Shown here piece after piece: positions 42,720 to 53,036 of a DNA stretch of 64,000 nucleotides. The first letter of the stretch is position 1, and every line of letters begins with the position of its first letter. The DNA lies in the NCBI GenBank assembly GCA_021785515.1, contig JAJYEX010000002.1:219328-283327 (forward strand), given 5' to 3'. The notes under the pieces were generated by a model, which did no database searches, had not been told where the DNA came from, and worked only from the letters and a program-made list of their open reading frames with translations. Made by a program: the position numbers and the translations under genes. Origin of the DNA: Pseudomonadota bacterium (GTDB taxonomy: Bacteria > Pseudomonadota > Gammaproteobacteria > Acidiferrobacterales > UBA6901).

Positions 42720-42840
42720 AGCGGTTACGGCGGTGACGGTCGGTCCCTCCGCGACGAAGGGTTGTGAACCCGGTCAGGTCCGGAAGGAAGCAGCCGCAGC
42801 AGTCCGCTCGGGTGCGGAGTGCGGCCGGCCGGAACCGCCA
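42720..42840 (+). ncRNA. ffs: Signal recognition particle RNA (4.5S)
   Basis: GGTCAGGTCCGGAAGGAAGC at 42772-42791, continuing AGCC, is the invariant domain IV core (Ffh binding, GGAA tetraloop). The flanks pair: GCGGTT (42721-42726) with AACCGC (42833-42838). Ends are set by this pairing and are approximate. It lies 48 bp upstream of dnaX, as in many gammaproteobacteria. The truncated IS ends about 130 bp upstream, leaving little room for its promoter. Confidence 0.92.
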
Positions 42841-44834: not shown

Positions 44835-45431
44835 ATGTCCGATACTCCCGCAATCGACGGCCTCAAGCAGGCCCTGCGGAGGTTGCCCGGCGTGGGACCG
44901 AAGACCGCCCAGCGCATGGCATTTCATCTGCTCGAACGTGACCGGGACGGGGCCCGTCTGATCGTTGAGGCGCTGGGCAGCGCGCTCGAGCGTGTGCAGC
45001 AGTGCCGGTCCTGCAATAACCTGTGCGAGCAGGAAGTCTGCGCGCTGTGTTCCTCGGCACGTCGCGACGCAGGCCTTCTGTGTATAGTGGAGTCGCCGGC
45101 TGATCTCGCCTCGCTGGAACAGTGCGGGGCGTACACGGGCCGCTACTTTGTGCTCATGGGCCACCTGTCGCCGCTCGACGGGGTCGGCCCAGATGAGCTG
45201 GGTATTCCGCGGCTCGAAGCTCTGCTTGATGCCGGTGGAGTCAGGGAAGTGATTCTTGCGACCAACCTGACGGTAGAGGGGGAGGCTACCGCGCACTACG
45301 TCGGCGAACTTGCCCGGGAAAGGAATATTCTGGTCACCCGGATCGCGCACGGCGTACCGCTGGGCGGGGAGCTTGAGTACACGGATCGCGGCACGCTGGC
45401 GCGGGCCTTCAGCGGCCGGCGCGAGGTCTAA
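44835..45431 (+). CDS. recR: Recombination protein RecR
   Basis: 198 residues, full length. Helix-hairpin-helix (LRRLPGVGPKTAQRMAFHLL), a C4 zinc finger (CRSCNNLCEQEVCALC), Toprim domain (LCIVESPADLASLE) and the C-terminal Walker-B-like motif are present. Acts with RecF/RecO to load RecA at gaps. Last gene of the dnaX operon. Confidence 0.96.
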   Translation: MSDTPAIDGLKQALRRLPGVGPKTAQRMAFHLLERDRDGARLIVEALGSALERVQQCRSCNNLCEQEVCALCSSARRDAGLLCIVESPADLASLEQCGAYTGRYFVLMGHLSPLDGVGPDELGIPRLEALLDAGGVREVILATNLTVEGEATAHYVGELARERNILVTRIAHGVPLGGELEYTDRGTLARAFSGRREV

Positions 45432-45592
45432 GAGCGCTGCCCGAGCAGGCCGGTCCGCCTGGGCGCAATCAGCAGCGTCGGCGGTTCGGTATCATCACTT
45501 CTGGCGGCACCATTATCCTCACCGCTTGCGGTACCGACCAGCTGTTTTCCGGCCGGTCAGGGCCTTGAGTGGGTTCCGGTCCTCATTTTCGG

Positions 45593-45677
45593 CAACGTGA
45601 CAACACTATTATTTAGGTACAGTTGCGCGGCACAGCGTGTAATGTTGTTGGCCACGTCGCTCAAGTGTTGGTTATGC
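45593..45677 (+). repeat. Candidate attC-like site downstream of recR
   Basis: The 3' side (AGTGTTGGTTATGC, ending in GTTATGC at 45671-45677) resembles the 3' half of many integron attC sites. CAACACT at 45602-45608 pairs with AGTGTTG at 45664-45670, and GCAAC lies outside it. The 5' core box does not match the RYYYAAC consensus well. Candidate only. Confidence 0.4.
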
Positions 45678-45692
45678 GGTACTGGGAGGAGC

Positions 45693-46253
45693 ATGAATCA
45701 ACAAACAACAAATGAGATCCAGAGGCAACTCGATTCGAGGGAAAGTGTTTTGTGGTCCGGCCAGCCGCGGCAACGCATCATGCTGCGTGGTTCTGATTTA
45801 TTGGGAATTCCTTTCAGCATGTTGTGGGGTGGGTTCGCAATCTTCTGGGAGTACAGTGCCTTTATTCATGGAGCACCGCCGTTCTTCTTGTTGTTTGGCG
45901 TAGTGTTCGTAGCGATAGGTCTGTACTTGATCGTGGGTCGTTTTTACGTCGATGCAAAACAAAGAGCAAGGACAGTTTATGCCGTTACCACAGACCGCGT
46001 GCTTATCATTTCCGGATTGGGTGGACAAAAAATTCAATCACTCGCGCTTCGAACACTTTCGGACGTATCGCTGACTGAATCAAAAGACGGTTTCGGTTCA
46101 ATTTCATTTGGCAATTCATTTCCGTTAACGTCTTTATTTGGCGGCATGTCGTGGCCGGGAATGGGAAGATTTTCCGGTCCGCGTCTTGATACAATCAATA
46201 ATTCAAAGCAGGTTTACCAAATCATCCGAGAGGCACAGAAAAATGCCACATAA
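45693..46253 (+). CDS. PH-domain membrane protein
   Basis: 186 residues from ATG 45693 (GGGAGGAG upstream). Two helices (LLGIPFSMLWGGFAIFWEYSAF; FFLLFGVVFVAIGLYLIVGRF) are followed by a bacterial PH-like domain (YAVTTDRVLIISGLGGQKIQSL; LTESKDGFGSISFGN), similar to YdbS-type proteins. Function unknown. AT-richer than recR. Its TAA stop lies within an attC-like start sequence (TAACACGTTGTTCG), typical of integron cassettes. Confidence 0.75.
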   Translation: MNQQTTNEIQRQLDSRESVLWSGQPRQRIMLRGSDLLGIPFSMLWGGFAIFWEYSAFIHGAPPFFLLFGVVFVAIGLYLIVGRFYVDAKQRARTVYAVTTDRVLIISGLGGQKIQSLALRTLSDVSLTESKDGFGSISFGNSFPLTSLFGGMSWPGMGRFSGPRLDTINNSKQVYQIIREAQKNAT

Positions 46254-46275
46254 CACGTTGTTCGTGCGACGTCTT
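46251..46275 (+). repeat. Half attC-like sequence at the end of the PH-domain gene
   Basis: TAACACGTTGTTCGTGCGAC begins at the stop codon and resembles the 5' half of the aadA-type attC (TAAC...GTTC...CCGACG). It is partly complementary to the attC-like 3' half upstream of the same gene. The matching 3' half does not follow here, so the site is incomplete. Confidence 0.4.
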
Positions 46276-46517
46276 CTCCGATTTAAGTAGCGCACCGGTT
46301 TCGAGTCCACTCTCATCGGTGAAACCGAGAAAATGCAGTCAACTTCCCAGCATGCACGCCGGTACCGGGATCCTTGACAATTCATTGTTGACAGGATACG
46401 TGTTTAATATCGCCAGCCTACAGCAATCGCCGGTGCGGCTCGGACGATAAAAGCAGTTGATCTATAGCGCGGGGCTAGTGCGCCAGGAAAATTCTAAGGA
46501 GCGAGGCATCGAGATCC
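46254..46517. other. Spacer before the acyltransferase gene
   Basis: 264 bp, no gene. TTGACA occurs twice (46374-46379 and 46388-46393) and either could be a -35, but neither has a good -10 at the right distance. Confidence 0.35.
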
Positions 46518-48518
46518 ATGGAACATCGCAAGGATATTCAGGCGCTACGCGCCCTGGCGGTAATGCTTGTTGTGGCCGCACATGCAAAATGGTCACTGTT
46601 TAAAGGTGGGTACGTTGGCGTCGATGTGTTTTTCGTGCTTTCAGGGTACTTGATTTCCGGACTCATTTTGACGGAAGTTGAGCAAACAGGGCGGTTTGCG
46701 GCGCTACATTTCTACGCAAGACGTATGAAGCGGCTGCTTCCCGGACTTTTTTTGATGCTCGCCGTTACCGCACTGCTAGTGACGCATTTGAATAGCCCCT
46801 GGCATCAGCGCGCAGAAATCGCATCCGCCAAAGCCACGACGTTATGGCTGAGTAACTTCTTTTTTGCTGCTCATGACGTCAACTATTTCTCAGAAGGACT
46901 GAACACATTCGCTCTTTTGCACACATGGTCATTGGGTGTTGAGGAGCAGTTTTATGTGGTCTGGCCCTGGATCATGTTGTTCCTCATAGCCCATTGGAGC
47001 TGGCAGGGCGGCGGAGGCGGGGTAAACCGGCGGCGGCTTTTCATCGGGATGCTATTAATCCTGGTGTTTTCCATGGCCATAAATTTGTTTCTGACTAGCA
47101 CTTCTATCACGGCTGGGTTTTATTTGATGCCTTCCCGGGCTTGGGAATTCGCGCTTGGCGCTATCGTATTCCTCGGGAGGAGGAATATGGCTAATGGACT
47201 CTATCCCAGAATAAGTCGGTGGGCTGGACGCTCGCTTCTGAACCTCATCGGAATTATCGCGATTCTGGCCTCGGCTGTCCTTTATCCGCCTAGTCTTGCC
47301 TATCCTGGCGCCTGGGCCTTGGTGCCCTGTTTGGGTACGGCGTTGGCCTTGTTGGACATGCCGGCTCCAGCAGATAAGTCATGGTTGTCCCGTAACGTTT
47401 TAGCGGGGGCCTATTTTCAGTTCTTTGGCAATATATCGTACAGCTGGTATCTATGGCATTGGCCGATCCTGCTTCTTGGTACCGAAGTGTTCGGAGACAG
47501 TGCGGTCGTTCGCGGCGCTTTGGTAGTGGTTGGGTTGGTGCTGGCAATTGTTGCGTACTATGTCGTGGAGCGTCCTTTGCATCGTATGCCGTTAAGGCAG
47601 CCGCTATATGCATGGGGAGCTACAGCAGCCGCCATACTGATAGCCTTCCATGGCATCGGCATCTGGAGCAAACGTGTGGATGTTTTAGCGCGCTCGCAGA
47701 CTCAAAAGCGCCTACTGATCGCAGCATTTAGCGTCCCCGTGCTTTACGACAGCCCGTGCGACACGTGGTATCACAGTAGTATGTTGTCGGTCTGCAAGTT
47801 TGGACCCAAAGACGCTGGCAACACAGTGGTCGTGCTGGGGGACAGTGTAATGGCGCAATGGTTTCCAGCGCTGTATAAAATATACGTTGATCAGCGCGAT
47901 TGGCGGTTGATCGTGCTGACGAAGTCGGCCTGTGCCGTGCAGGACGAAACCTATTACTATGCGCGTATCAAACGAACGTACACCGTTTGCTCGACGTGGC
48001 GTCAAAGGGCATTGCGCTATATTTCGAAGATCCATCCTCGCTTGGTTATCGCGGGATCGACGTTATATGGGTTTACGCCGGAACAATGGATTGAGGGGAC
48101 GCGAGAAACGATTAATTCGCTCAGCGGATCTAGCCGGAAAGTCCTGCTATTTGCGCCGGCACCTAGCCTTAGGTTTAATGGTCTAGAGTGCCTGTCGGAA
48201 CATGATGTATGGCCAACTTGGCTTGCCGCGGGCAGGCGCTGTTCGGCGCCGGAACAAGCAACGACCCTGCACAGGGTCGACGGCTATTTGAAGCAGGCAA
48301 TATCTGGCTATTCGAACGTCTCGTTGATCGTAGTCAACAAACTACTTTGTCCGCACGGGATCTGCAGTGCCGAACGTGACGGGCAGCCGGAATTCAGGGA
48401 TGAATTACACATTACGGCTTCCTTTGCCTCGTTTTTGACTCCAGGGTTAGAACGGTTGCTCAGTGCAAGAAACATGAAGCAAGGGGGAGGCGCTCGCGTG
48501 AGACAGCCTGTTTCTTGA
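46518..48518 (+). CDS. OafA/YrhL-type O-acyltransferase with SGNH domain
   Basis: 666 residues. The N-terminal acyltransferase-3 domain (RKDIQALRALAVMLVVAAHA; GGYVGVDVFFVLSGYLISGLI; FYARRMKRLLPGLF; WSLGVEEQFYVVWP) has about ten helices and the catalytic-type HIS in VAAHAKWS. The C-terminal soluble part from about 400 carries an SGNH block-I motif VVLGDSVMAQWFPAL. Such enzymes O-acetylate lipopolysaccharide, capsule or peptidoglycan sugars. AAGGAG precedes the start. No O-antigen cluster is nearby, consistent with transfer as a single gene. Confidence 0.88.
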   Translation: MEHRKDIQALRALAVMLVVAAHAKWSLFKGGYVGVDVFFVLSGYLISGLILTEVEQTGRFAALHFYARRMKRLLPGLFLMLAVTALLVTHLNSPWHQRAEIASAKATTLWLSNFFFAAHDVNYFSEGLNTFALLHTWSLGVEEQFYVVWPWIMLFLIAHWSWQGGGGGVNRRRLFIGMLLILVFSMAINLFLTSTSITAGFYLMPSRAWEFALGAIVFLGRRNMANGLYPRISRWAGRSLLNLIGIIAILASAVLYPPSLAYPGAWALVPCLGTALALLDMPAPADKSWLSRNVLAGAYFQFFGNISYSWYLWHWPILLLGTEVFGDSAVVRGALVVVGLVLAIVAYYVVERPLHRMPLRQPLYAWGATAAAILIAFHGIGIWSKRVDVLARSQTQKRLLIAAFSVPVLYDSPCDTWYHSSMLSVCKFGPKDAGNTVVVLGDSVMAQWFPALYKIYVDQRDWRLIVLTKSACAVQDETYYYARIKRTYTVCSTWRQRALRYISKIHPRLVIAGSTLYGFTPEQWIEGTRETINSLSGSSRKVLLFAPAPSLRFNGLECLSEHDVWPTWLAAGRRCSAPEQATTLHRVDGYLKQAISGYSNVSLIVVNKLLCPHGICSAERDGQPEFRDELHITASFASFLTPGLERLLSARNMKQGGGARVRQPVS

Positions 48519-48965
48519 TCCTGAAATTGTTGGCACGTCATCGACATACTCGAATCTATGCTCAACGCCGATATTTTGAACGTTGCAATGCTGGAAGAGT
48601 GAGCGTCTTCTCTGCGAAACCAGGAAGCCATTGATTCAATGGCTTCGATCTGCACATATCGCTTGAAGTATCCCTCACCCATGGAGGACAAGGGCGTGGA
48701 AAGGATGATTAAACGGGCTCTGGACGCGAAACCGAATTGACATGAAAAACCTTAACCGCACGATCCATCAGACATGGAAGAACGCAGGCCTCTTTGCACG
48801 CGCCGATTACGAATCTAGGTTGGTTGATGAGTGTCCCATGTCAAAAGAGCGGTTCGCGAAAATTGTGAAGCAAGCCGTAATATGATTGGCCGCGCTGTGC
48901 GGGAGATCTGCAATGAATCCAGATCACTCGTTGTTGAGCATTAAAACCATTACGCTGTACTAGCC
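48519..48965. other. Spacer between acyltransferase and first GNAT gene
   Basis: About 0.45 kb with only very short frames and no recognised product. It may contain decayed cassette DNA; no complete attC-like palindrome was found here. Confidence 0.4.
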
Positions 48966-49391
48966 GTGGAAATTGACCTCTCAACAGACATTGACCGCAT
49001 TTCATGGCAAGAGTTGGCTCGTCTGTTTGAGCTGGCGCCATTGGGTAAAAAGCGCGAACCGGAGCAGCTCGAAATTGCTTTTCGGAACAGCATGCTGAAG
49101 GTCTTTGCATTCCAGGGGGAAAAACTCATTGGTGCTGGGCGTGCGTTGTCTGATGGGGTTTGGCGTGCCGCAATATACGATGTTGCGGTTTTTCCTGAAT
49201 ATCAGGGCCGGGGCATTGGAAGCATGATCGTTCGCCATTTAATTGATTCTGCAAAAGTCGATGTCATCATGTTGTATGCGGCACCGGGCAAGTCCGAGTT
49301 TTACGAACGATTCGGGTTCCGTAAAATGGTTACCGCCATGGCAATTATGCCCAGTGAAGACGAAGCAAGAAAACGCGGGTTAATTGAATAA
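48966..49391 (+). CDS. GNAT family N-acetyltransferase (first)
   Basis: 141 residues from a GTG start. The acetyl-CoA pyrophosphate loop is clear: VAVFPEYQGRGIGSMIV (V-x-P-x-YQGRGIG). The C-terminus (PGKSEFYERFGFRKM) is the typical last strand-helix. Acetyl acceptor unknown. Its TAA stop is one base from an attC-like core box. Confidence 0.85.
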   Translation: MEIDLSTDIDRISWQELARLFELAPLGKKREPEQLEIAFRNSMLKVFAFQGEKLIGAGRALSDGVWRAAIYDVAVFPEYQGRGIGSMIVRHLIDSAKVDVIMLYAAPGKSEFYERFGFRKMVTAMAIMPSEDEARKRGLIE

Positions 49392-49392
49392 T

Positions 49393-49464
49393 GCCCAACC
49401 CATAATTCCAGCGGACCGTCAAAAATCCGAGTTTTTCACCGTCTGCGGAATTCAAGTGTTAGAG
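49393..49464 (+). repeat. attC-like recombination site
   Basis: 72-bp imperfect palindrome directly after the GNAT stop codon. It starts with GCCCAAC (matches RYYYAAC), has AATTCC (49404-49409) pairing with GGAATT (49447-49452), partial pairing between, and ends in TTCAAGTGTTAGAG; GTTAGAG (49458-49464) matches GTTRRRY except at the last base. Size, spacing, outer arms and position relative to genes all fit an integron attC. Confidence 0.55.
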
Positions 49465-49475
49465 TGGAACACGGA

Positions 49476-49910
49476 ATGGACTGCGAGATCAACATACAGC
49501 TGATTCCGAATGCGGAAATTACGGCCATTATTCCGCTGCTCAGGCTCTTGAACAACGTCATTCCCGAACAAACGCTACGAGACCGGCTCGATGACATGGT
49601 GCGTCAAGGTTACAAATGTGCCGGGCTGTATCTTGGTGGAGAGTTAATCGGAATTTGCGGCCTTTGGATCATAACCAAGTACTACGTCGGTCGTCACATT
49701 GAACCGGATAACGTTGTTATCCTTCCGGAACATCGAGCAAAGGGTTTCGGCAAGCAGCTAATTTCCTGGGTGTGTGAGTACGGCAGATCACAGGGTTGCA
49801 TTGCAAGTGAACTAAACTGCTACATTACGAACGAGTCCGGCCAGGCATTTTGGGAGAAAGAGGGGTACAACAAAATTGGGTATCATTACCAACGCCGTCT
49901 TGAACCCTAG
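49476..49910 (+). CDS. GNAT family N-acetyltransferase (second)
   Basis: 144 residues from the ATG at 49476; a GTG at 49464 overlapping the attC-like site is an alternative. The fold elements (GELIGICGLWII; VVILPEHRAKGFGKQLISWV with the R-x-KG-G-G-type pyrophosphate loop; AFWEKEGYNKIGYHYQR) place it in the family. Low sequence similarity to the first GNAT by eye. Substrate unknown. Confidence 0.85.
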   Translation: MDCEINIQLIPNAEITAIIPLLRLLNNVIPEQTLRDRLDDMVRQGYKCAGLYLGGELIGICGLWIITKYYVGRHIEPDNVVILPEHRAKGFGKQLISWVCEYGRSQGCIASELNCYITNESGQAFWEKEGYNKIGYHYQRRLEP

Positions 49911-50388
49911 AACAGACAGATACGCTGTGTCGACCGCTCTCTATAAAAACCTTCTCGGTTGTTTGGAAACCCGTGGTTATCGAGTTTTGACTTCACAATG
50001 CAAGGCGCCGGGGCGCGGTAGGTTGAAGGCTGACCTCAAAAATGGGACTCAGGTCAGCCTGTGAAACGGGATTCATCTCAGTATGATCAGAGTGATCCTA
50101 TGGGGCTGGCGGAGTGTGGTCGGTGCAGGGGTTGTCAATCATCGGCACTCCGTAGGGGTGCCTGACACTTACAGTGGCATCGCCGGTGGCGGGACAGGCG
50201 AATACGTCGCGAGTTTTATCGCGAAGTTCTTCTCTGCCAACGTGCCGGATGAGATGTCCAACGGCCTTTGTGCTGCGGCGCAAACCGCTCGGTCGGGAGG
50301 GCTCAATGGACTTTCCTGGGGCCGCCATCTCAGCCGCGGTAGCAGCGGCACTCAAGGCGGAAAACCACTGCTTGTGCAAAGTATCGAA
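49911..50388. other. Spacer with no firmly supported gene
   Basis: About 0.48 kb between the second GNAT and a small membrane-protein gene. The frame of the latter is open back to 50083, but this part shows no domain. No complete attC-like site was found. Confidence 0.35.
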
Positions 50389-50631
50389 ATGAATAAGTTG
50401 GAACGCGTGTTGCGTGTTGCCTTGGCCGTACCGGCAACTTGGCTGGCGGGGTACGTGGTGCACTGGGTACGGGGTTTTGTCCATGCGACTTGGAGTCTAA
50501 CCATTCCACCTCTGATATATGAGGTTATTTTGGTGATCGCCGTTGTCGGTGCGATGTGGGCAGTGGCAGGAAGCGTTATTAACGATCTGAAAGCCGGAGC
50601 AAATAGACGAAAAGAGCAAGGCAGAAAATAG
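50389..50631 (+). CDS. Small membrane protein, unknown
   Basis: 80 residues from ATG 50389. Two hydrophobic segments: VALAVPATWLAGYVVHWVRGF and PPLIYEVILVIAVVGAMWAVAG; C-terminal RRKEQGRK is basic. Not recognised. The start is uncertain since the frame is open to 50083. The next frame downstream begins to be open before this stop. Confidence 0.4.
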   Translation: MNKLERVLRVALAVPATWLAGYVVHWVRGFVHATWSLTIPPLIYEVILVIAVVGAMWAVAGSVINDLKAGANRRKEQGRK

Positions 50632-50701
50632 CGGAAACGCCGAAGAGGAGCTCTTCGACAGCTGGAACCGGTACCGTGATCCGGGGACGGGGGTAGACCC
50701 G

Positions 50702-51109
50702 GTGAGTGTGGGGACGCACATCCCGACAACGCTTACCGAGATGCGGCTCCCACAGATTCTGCCAACGATCAGTTCGGATATGGACCTCACGTCCGCGCCC
50801 GATCAGACCCAGATACCTTTCGAGTTTGATCCATATAGTTGCACGGGCGTTAATTTGCCGAGATGGATAGATCGGACCGGCCAAGGGCTCGTTCTCGGTA
50901 CACGGTGCGCGGTGTACGATGCATCCGAATGGGCCTCTGCAGGAATAGGGCTCGTGAAATTGGAACAACAGGCACAAAAACTTCAGCAGGAATACCAGAA
51001 GCTTAGCGAGCGCGGCTACGGTCTGAATGTAACTGACGCTGACGTTCAACGATTAAAAGCCCTGGAAGAGCAAATTGCATCCTTCTGTCGAACCAGATTT
51101 AGTCCCTGA
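50702..51109 (+). CDS. Hypothetical protein, unknown
   Basis: 135 residues if the GTG at 50702 is used, but the frame is open from 50591 (with KPEQIDEKSKAENSG and EEELFDSWNRYRDPGTG), with no ATG in between, so the gene may use a rare start or be fused by frameshift to the preceding one. The C-terminal part (KLEQQAQKLQQEYQKLSERG) is a coiled coil. No domain recognised. Confidence 0.35.
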   Translation: MSVGTHIPTTLTEMRLPQILPTISSDMDLTSAPDQTQIPFEFDPYSCTGVNLPRWIDRTGQGLVLGTRCAVYDASEWASAGIGLVKLEQQAQKLQQEYQKLSERGYGLNVTDADVQRLKALEEQIASFCRTRFSP

Positions 51110-51185
51110 TTCTGGGATTTGAGACAGATGTCAGGGTGGGCGTGTTGGCTTCTTCGGCAATCGAATCCTGATACCATAAACAACC

Positions 51186-53036
51186 ATGCCCGATTCCCGG
51201 TCAGCGCCTATTGGCGCCTCGTCCCAGGATCGTCCGGCGGCCTCCATACGGCAGCTGGCGCCGATCCTCGGATTTCTGCGGCCGTATCGCGGGCGTGTGG
51301 TTGTTGCTTCAGTGGCCCTGGTGGTTGCCGCCGCTATGGTGCTGAGCGTCGGTCAAGGACTGCGTCTACTGGTGGATCGTGGGTTTGCCGGCGGCAACCC
51401 ACACGTGCTCGACCAGATGCTGGTGGTGCTGCTTGCGTTGGTAGTGGTAATGGCGATTGCCACCGGGACGCGTTTCTATCTCGTTTCGTGGATCGGAGAG
51501 CGCGTCAGCGCCGATATCCGCCAGGCGGTGTTTAGTCATGTGCTGAGCCTCAGTCCTGGATTTTTCGAGCTCGCGCGCACCGGCGAAATTATTTCACGTC
51601 TTACAGCCGATACCACGCTGCTCGAGACTGTAGTCGGGTCTTCCGCATCCCTTGCGCTGCGCAACCTGCTTCTGTTCGTAGGCGGAACAGTCATGCTTGC
51701 GGTGACCAGTCCGGCCTTGACCACGCTGGTCATGGTCGGTGTTCCGGTCGTTGTCGTGCCCATCATTTTCTTCGGGCGACGCGTGCGCCGGTGGTCGCGC
51801 GCCAGCCAGGACCGGATTGCTGATGTCGGAGCTTTCGGCGAGGAGACCCTGCATGGCATCCGGACGGTACAGGCGTTCTGCCACGAGGACATCGATCGCA
51901 GCAGGTTCAAGGAGCGAGTCGAGGCCGCCTTCGGGACCGCGACCCGCCGCATACGGCAGCGCGCTCTGCTCACCGCCTTTGTGATCCTGCTCGTTTTCAC
52001 TGCAGTCGGTGTCATACTCTGGGTCGGCGGCCGGGAGGTGATCGCCGGACGTCTCAGCGCCGGAGATCTTTCGGCATTCGTTTTTTACTCGGTGCTGGTG
52101 GCGGGATCGGTCGGTGCGATCAGCGAGGTGGTCGGCGATGTGCAGCGGGCAGCGGGCGCAGCGGAGCGTCTGCTGGAACTGCTGGCCACGCGTCCGGATA
52201 TAAGTGCACCGTCTCCCGCCCAGGCCTTGCCGCATCCTGTGCGCGGCGTCATCGAATTCGAGCAGGTACGGTTCCATTACCCGACGCGTCCGGAGACGCC
52301 GGCGCTTGATCGGTTCACGTTGCACGTCCGGTCCGGCGAACGCCTGGCGCTGGTCGGACCGTCGGGCGCCGGGAAGACCACTGTATTCCAGCTGCTGCTG
52401 CGTTTCTATGACCCGCAGGACGGATGCGTGTGCCTCGATGGAGTGGATGTACGCACGGTGCGGCCGGAAGATCTGCGTAGCCGGATCGGGCTGGTGCCCC
52501 AGGATCCGGTGATTTTCGCGACCGACGCTTGGGAAAACATTCGCTACGGACGGCCCGGTGCGAGCGATGCCGAGGTGCGGGCAGCGGCAGAGGCGGCGTA
52601 TGCGGCGAACTTTCTTGACCGTCTGCCGCAGGGATTCGGCAGCCAGCTCGGCGAACGCGGCGTTCGCCTCTCGGGAGGTCAGCGCCAACGCATTGCCCTT
52701 GCGAGGGCCATCCTGCGTGATCCGGCGGTCTTGCTGCTCGATGAGGCCACGAGCGCGCTCGATGCCGAGAGCGAGCGCATGGTGCAGCAGGCGCTCGAGC
52801 GGCTTATGGTGGGGCGGACGACCATCATTATTGCCCACAGGCTGGCGACCGTGCTCAAGGCTGACCGCATCGCGGTGATGCTTGATGGCCAGATCGTCTC
52901 AAGTGGCCGGCACGACGATCTCATTGCCGAGGGCGGCCTGTATGCGCGTTTGGCGGCGTTACAGTTTGGACAGACCGCCGGAGCCGATCACCGGCGGGCC
53001 GAAGCAGCATTTTCCGGCGGAGGCGGGAGCTCATGA
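51186..53036 (+). CDS. ABC exporter, fused membrane and ATPase domains (MsbA/LmrA type)
   Basis: 616 residues. Six-helix ABC transmembrane domain (residues 25-330; e.g. VVVASVALVVAAAMVLSV) then the ATPase with GPSGAGKTT (Walker A), LVPQDPVIF (Q-loop), RLSGGQRQRIALARAIL (signature), VLLLDEATSALD (Walker B) and IIAHRLAT (switch His). A homodimeric exporter; lipid or drug substrate cannot be deduced. No lpxK follows, so it is not clearly msbA. Overlaps the next gene by four bases. Confidence 0.92.
   Translation: MPDSRSAPIGASSQDRPAASIRQLAPILGFLRPYRGRVVVASVALVVAAAMVLSVGQGLRLLVDRGFAGGNPHVLDQMLVVLLALVVVMAIATGTRFYLVSWIGERVSADIRQAVFSHVLSLSPGFFELARTGEIISRLTADTTLLETVVGSSASLALRNLLLFVGGTVMLAVTSPALTTLVMVGVPVVVVPIIFFGRRVRRWSRASQDRIADVGAFGEETLHGIRTVQAFCHEDIDRSRFKERVEAAFGTATRRIRQRALLTAFVILLVFTAVGVILWVGGREVIAGRLSAGDLSAFVFYSVLVAGSVGAISEVVGDVQRAAGAAERLLELLATRPDISAPSPAQALPHPVRGVIEFEQVRFHYPTRPETPALDRFTLHVRSGERLALVGPSGAGKTTVFQLLLRFYDPQDGCVCLDGVDVRTVRPEDLRSRIGLVPQDPVIFATDAWENIRYGRPGASDAEVRAAAEAAYAANFLDRLPQGFGSQLGERGVRLSGGQRQRIALARAILRDPAVLLLDEATSALDAESERMVQQALERLMVGRTTIIIAHRLATVLKADRIAVMLDGQIVSSGRHDDLIAEGGLYARLAALQFGQTAGADHRRAEAAFSGGGGSS

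Follow-up and report, generated by a model that had tools for sequence, protein, structure and literature searches.

Among chromosomal loci that lack an integron integrase, CALIN calls require at least two attC sites (PMC12444791), while a single attC without an integrase is classed as a SALIN (PMC12690207). The locus described here lies between recR and an ABC exporter gene in a window of 64 kb, the window being the whole stretch of DNA that was analyzed (features are collected in Table 1). By sequence it answers to the SALIN description, with one bona fide attC, one attC only and no integron integrase. The two or more nearby attC sites of an integrase-less CALIN are not found at recR, although they are found elsewhere in the same genome, and the intI and attI beside cassettes that define a complete integron are likewise absent, no IntI being present in the genome. 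With a probability of roughly 0.8 we read GNAT1 and its attC as a genuine lone integron cassette without integrase, lying within a block that is missing from sister species. It is thus a genuine if unremarkable stray cassette, of the SALIN kind that is already known.

Table 1. Features of the recR-exporter interval, in positions of the window.
Feature	Position	Strand	Basis and remarks
recR, left flank	44835..45431	+	RecR 87-89% identical in four congeners, with the exporter directly after
Block missing from four congeners	45432..51185		Junction distance in G001-G004 and GC
Protein with weak bacterial PH-domain match	45693..46253	+	bPH_2, E 0.003, under the Pfam cut-off; attC not found
Acyltransferase-3/SGNH fusion	46518..48518	+	Pfam PF01757 and PF19040; attC not found
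GNAT1, cassette gene	48966..49391	+	PF00583; homologues directly 5' of attC at other loci
attC	49393..49464	+	Covariance model R1, 28.7 bits, E 7e-5
attC boxes	R'' 49393-49399; L'' about 49405-49416; L' about 49441-49451; R' 49458-49464	+
GNAT2	49476..49910	+	PF00583; start 17 bp past the crossover point; no attC after
Orphan ORF	50083..50631	+	No Pfam or PHROG match
Orphan ORF	50702..51109	+	Searches of 57 genomes of the order, of plasmids and of phages gave no homologue
ABC exporter, right flank	51186..53036	+	TIGR02204, 879.5 bits; 81-85% identical next to recR in congeners

An initial annotation of this DNA had singled out the spacer behind GNAT1 for its attC core boxes and matching arms directly after a stop codon, and had proposed that 45400-51200 be searched with an attC covariance model. 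We used a model of our own, R1, derived from 47 attC sites in arrays adjoining integron integrases in Gammaproteobacteria, with canonical R and L pairings and with the window site left out of the training set. The search returned that one spacer, with 28.7 bits and an E value of 7e-5 over 64 kb, the opposite strand scoring just 6.8 bits; R1 found no second attC anywhere in the 64-kb window. The same segment is the top site of the window in a structural scan for the R''-L''-L'-R' arrangement, and its 5' half, at 49393, scores highest of all window positions on both strands (20.0; the next on the + strand reaches 11.0). The site begins one base 3' of the GNAT1 stop codon, its boxes read GCCCAAC (R''), ATTCCAGCGGAC (L''), GTCTGCGGAAT (L') and GTTAGAG (R'), and crossover is expected between 49458 and 49459. 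In control searches R1 matched nothing at E<=5 in 1.25 Mb that covered 80 other recR loci; in a family with no integrase over the cut-off (f4), five of six genomes were free of matches at E<=0.01. Folding, which had also been suggested as a check and is on its own a weak test of attC, gave a z-score of -1.73, with 9 of 200 shuffles folding equally well. Judged from its sequence, the spacer is a well-formed, bona fide attC for which recombination activity is predicted.

The gene in front of this site has homologues that are themselves cassette genes, at loci all other than recR. In three genomes (G001, G207 and G323) the GNAT1 homologue stops a few bp short of an attC: in the congener G001 (L228 1-276) the attC scores 36.0 bits and the homologue, its gene cut by the contig start, is 85% identical over the last 61 residues; in G207 the flanking attC sites score 21.6 and 19.5 bits; and in G323, from a different family within the order, a complete integron (IntI, 454.9 bits) has a 46% homologue amid its eleven attC sites. 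A further genome, G107, has an attC just before its homologue. No attC was seen at the GNAT1-homologue locus in seven other genomes of the class, and because 7 of 9 more distant homologues in the class lack an attC at their locus the GNAT1 family is not restricted to cassettes. Plasmids hold only distant homologues of GNAT1 and GNAT2, and no match to the 48.5-49.0 kb stretch.

In a second congener, G002 (L227 7581-8014), a 77% GNAT1 homologue has no detectable attC; a candidate decayed site after it (about p 0.05 by shuffling, with 25 of 429 background segments equally good) was not accepted. When the window is aligned with the G001 region, homology ends at the R'' box and the attC sequences differ. 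Across three loci, GNAT1 and its homologues in congeners (77-85% protein identity) thus show three 3' ends (two attC types, and none in G002). It is conceivable, though we think it improbable, that these ends form a natural series in which a gene acquires an attC or swaps it for another. To our knowledge this step in cassette formation is poorly understood. Because its attC ends differ between sister species, GNAT1 may be of use in studying how genes come to have attC sites.

The surrounding block, 45.5-51.2 kb, has a GC content of 0.49-0.56 in 1-kb windows versus about 0.60-0.66 in the flanks, so that its earlier description as AT-richer is borne out; the label of an old island is a fair one for the whole block. 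A comparison of the recR-exporter junction in relatives, recommended in the initial annotation, showed the ∼5.7-kb block to be missing in 4/4 congeners (G001-G004). Since recR and the exporter are only 51-182 bp apart in all four, the block is, on this comparison, an insertion in the source lineage or, less simply, a segment lost from the other congeners. What remains of the congeners' recR-exporter intergenic DNA aligns too poorly across the block borders to give the target, no target duplication was seen there, and direct repeats, searched for as a border signature, were none of them convincing; the block's apparent route of entry cannot be read from its borders. The recR 3' end was also considered as an insertion hotspot and rejected, the intervening genes in other genomes looking like ordinary chromosomal ones. 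Across the order the interval from recR to the pterin-dehydratase gene ranges from about 20 bp to more than 6 kb, and in one genome, G021 (L130 3691-3774), the last 28 recR codons are duplicated about 1.1 kb downstream of recR. One of the closer named matches to RecR, at 70%, comes from a Sulfuricaulis MAG. An Rfam search of the window gave a sole solid match, outside the block, to the bacterial small SRP RNA (42738-42833, + strand, 71.7 bits); it falls within the 5'-extended part of the listed dnaX ORF, whose true start is therefore probably further downstream.

No integron integrase was found in the source genome, a draft that is 99.92% complete, the best match being an XerC-like protein with 73.7 bits versus a cut-off of 265; the earlier observation that none is seen near the block thus extends genome-wide. 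A second integrase-less locus is nevertheless present, a CALIN of four attC sites of 22-48 bits (G000:C9:27214-28902; L192 7214-8902, minus strand), its sites lying around short membrane-protein-like cassettes that are followed by transposase-like frames. Over the family as a whole, the source genome and six others, attC matches occur in 7/7 genomes and IntI over the cut-off in 0/7. The attC counts from these whole-genome searches are lower bounds, because out of the more than 2000 candidates in each genome just 150 were scored, and the window site itself was missed. In the congener G002 a frame of 112 amino acids (L230 7628-7963, contig C63) matches the IntI C-terminus with 63.8 bits, XerD with 58.1 and XerC with 57.7, and is divergent from the adjoining CALIN, as in a decayed integron; from these scores it is probably a C-terminal remnant of an integron integrase. 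Of the five attC sites in the adjoining CALIN, two are weak at about 20 bits.

In weighing how the locus arose we count for the single-cassette reading the score of the attC, its strong strand asymmetry, the clean controls, the cassette-borne GNAT1 homologues, the lack of the block in G001-G004, the four-site CALIN in the same genome and the absence of an IntI over the cut-off from genome and family, and against it the solitary attC, the lack of an attI, the lack of cassette signs in most block genes, the attC-free loci of seven of the nine more distant GNAT1 homologues and the illegible insertion borders. That the attC is an inverted repeat arisen by chance would agree with the modest folding z-score, yet it is very hard to reconcile with the E value and controls, or with attC sites directly 3' of homologous genes elsewhere, and we regard it as highly improbable. 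The initial annotation had gone further, to a relic array of CALIN type, and an integron origin does stand for one cassette, GNAT1 with its own attC, given cassette-borne homologues elsewhere and the absence of the block from the congeners; an array is not shown, there being one attC. The recR locus holds one cassette rather than an array because the PH-match protein, the acyltransferase-SGNH fusion and the two orphan ORFs carry no attC. Among the proposed cargo genes the two GNATs are clear but the PH-domain assignment is weak; a search of 57 genomes from the order gave the latter protein one weak partial match (37%), and in 369 genomes of the class nothing but the source genome matched it at E<=1e-12. 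PH, GNAT1, GNAT2 and perhaps others might still all have entered as cassettes, every attC but one having since decayed. The distance of the GNAT2 start from the crossover point is typical of cassette genes, G002 has a GNAT2-like gene (29%) as a cassette, ending beside an attC, and attC arrays are common in the order; the closest GNAT2 homologues (36-41%) are found in family f4, without attC, and GNAT2 may be either a next cassette that has lost its attC or a resident gene. Two further spacers had been said to carry half-sites, neither of which rises above chance by profile scoring. The supposed 3' half-site before the PH gene is missing from the top profile matches, and the poor attC-like 5' half after it (46248) scores 2.8 and ranks only 79 in the window on both strands, so that it is mildly suggestive, as located right at the stop codon, and still unsupported. 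Moreover, R1 with its filters off finds nothing in 45400-51200 above 9 bits besides the GNAT1 site, and a 2-kb acyltransferase gene and orphan ORFs are untypical as cassettes. A decayed array is unlikely.

An alternative that we take more seriously, at odds still short of even, sees the block as an accessory island that arose in some other way and brought GNAT1-attC-GNAT2 along inside it, through homologous recombination or a different mobile element and without integrase action at the locus. The absence of attC from most of the block and of any integrase signature at its borders is what such an island would leave, but the block contains neither a transposase nor a phage integrase, and no border repeat is found. 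Our confidence in the several explanations overlaps, since a SALIN may at the same time be a cassette carried by an island. For the lone cassette itself we infer that an integron integrase, lost from or never encoded by the source genome, would have recombined the folded bottom strand of the cassette attC with a partner that could be an attI, another attC or a chromosomal attG-like site, and that the cassette persisted in the chromosome once the integrase had disappeared; it might be mobilized again by an integrase acting in trans.

The lone GNAT1 cassette is thereby placed at a housekeeping locus, in a family where all seven genomes searched have attC sites and none an IntI over the cut-off, as an instance in which cassettes have outlived integrons or spread beyond them. 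A CALIN (PMC12444791) likewise has no integrase nearby but needs two or more attC sites where the window locus has one. Integration into attG sites (Loot et al. 2024), as that work is cited in PMC12690207 and PMC12444791, would similarly put a cassette at an ordinary chromosomal site, joined to host sequence at a G/TT-type target; at recR the target is unreadable, the borders not being alignable with the congeners. The decayed chromosomal integrons of Xanthomonas have also kept scattered attC sites and lost the integrase, but there the platform is at ilvD, whereas no ancestral platform locus was found in the source lineage (PMC12444791 for Xanthomonas). With the SALIN (PMC12690207) our locus shares a single attC, the lack of an integrase, a chromosomal position and a cassette gene directly 5' of the site, and differs in that the site sits inside a larger accessory block.
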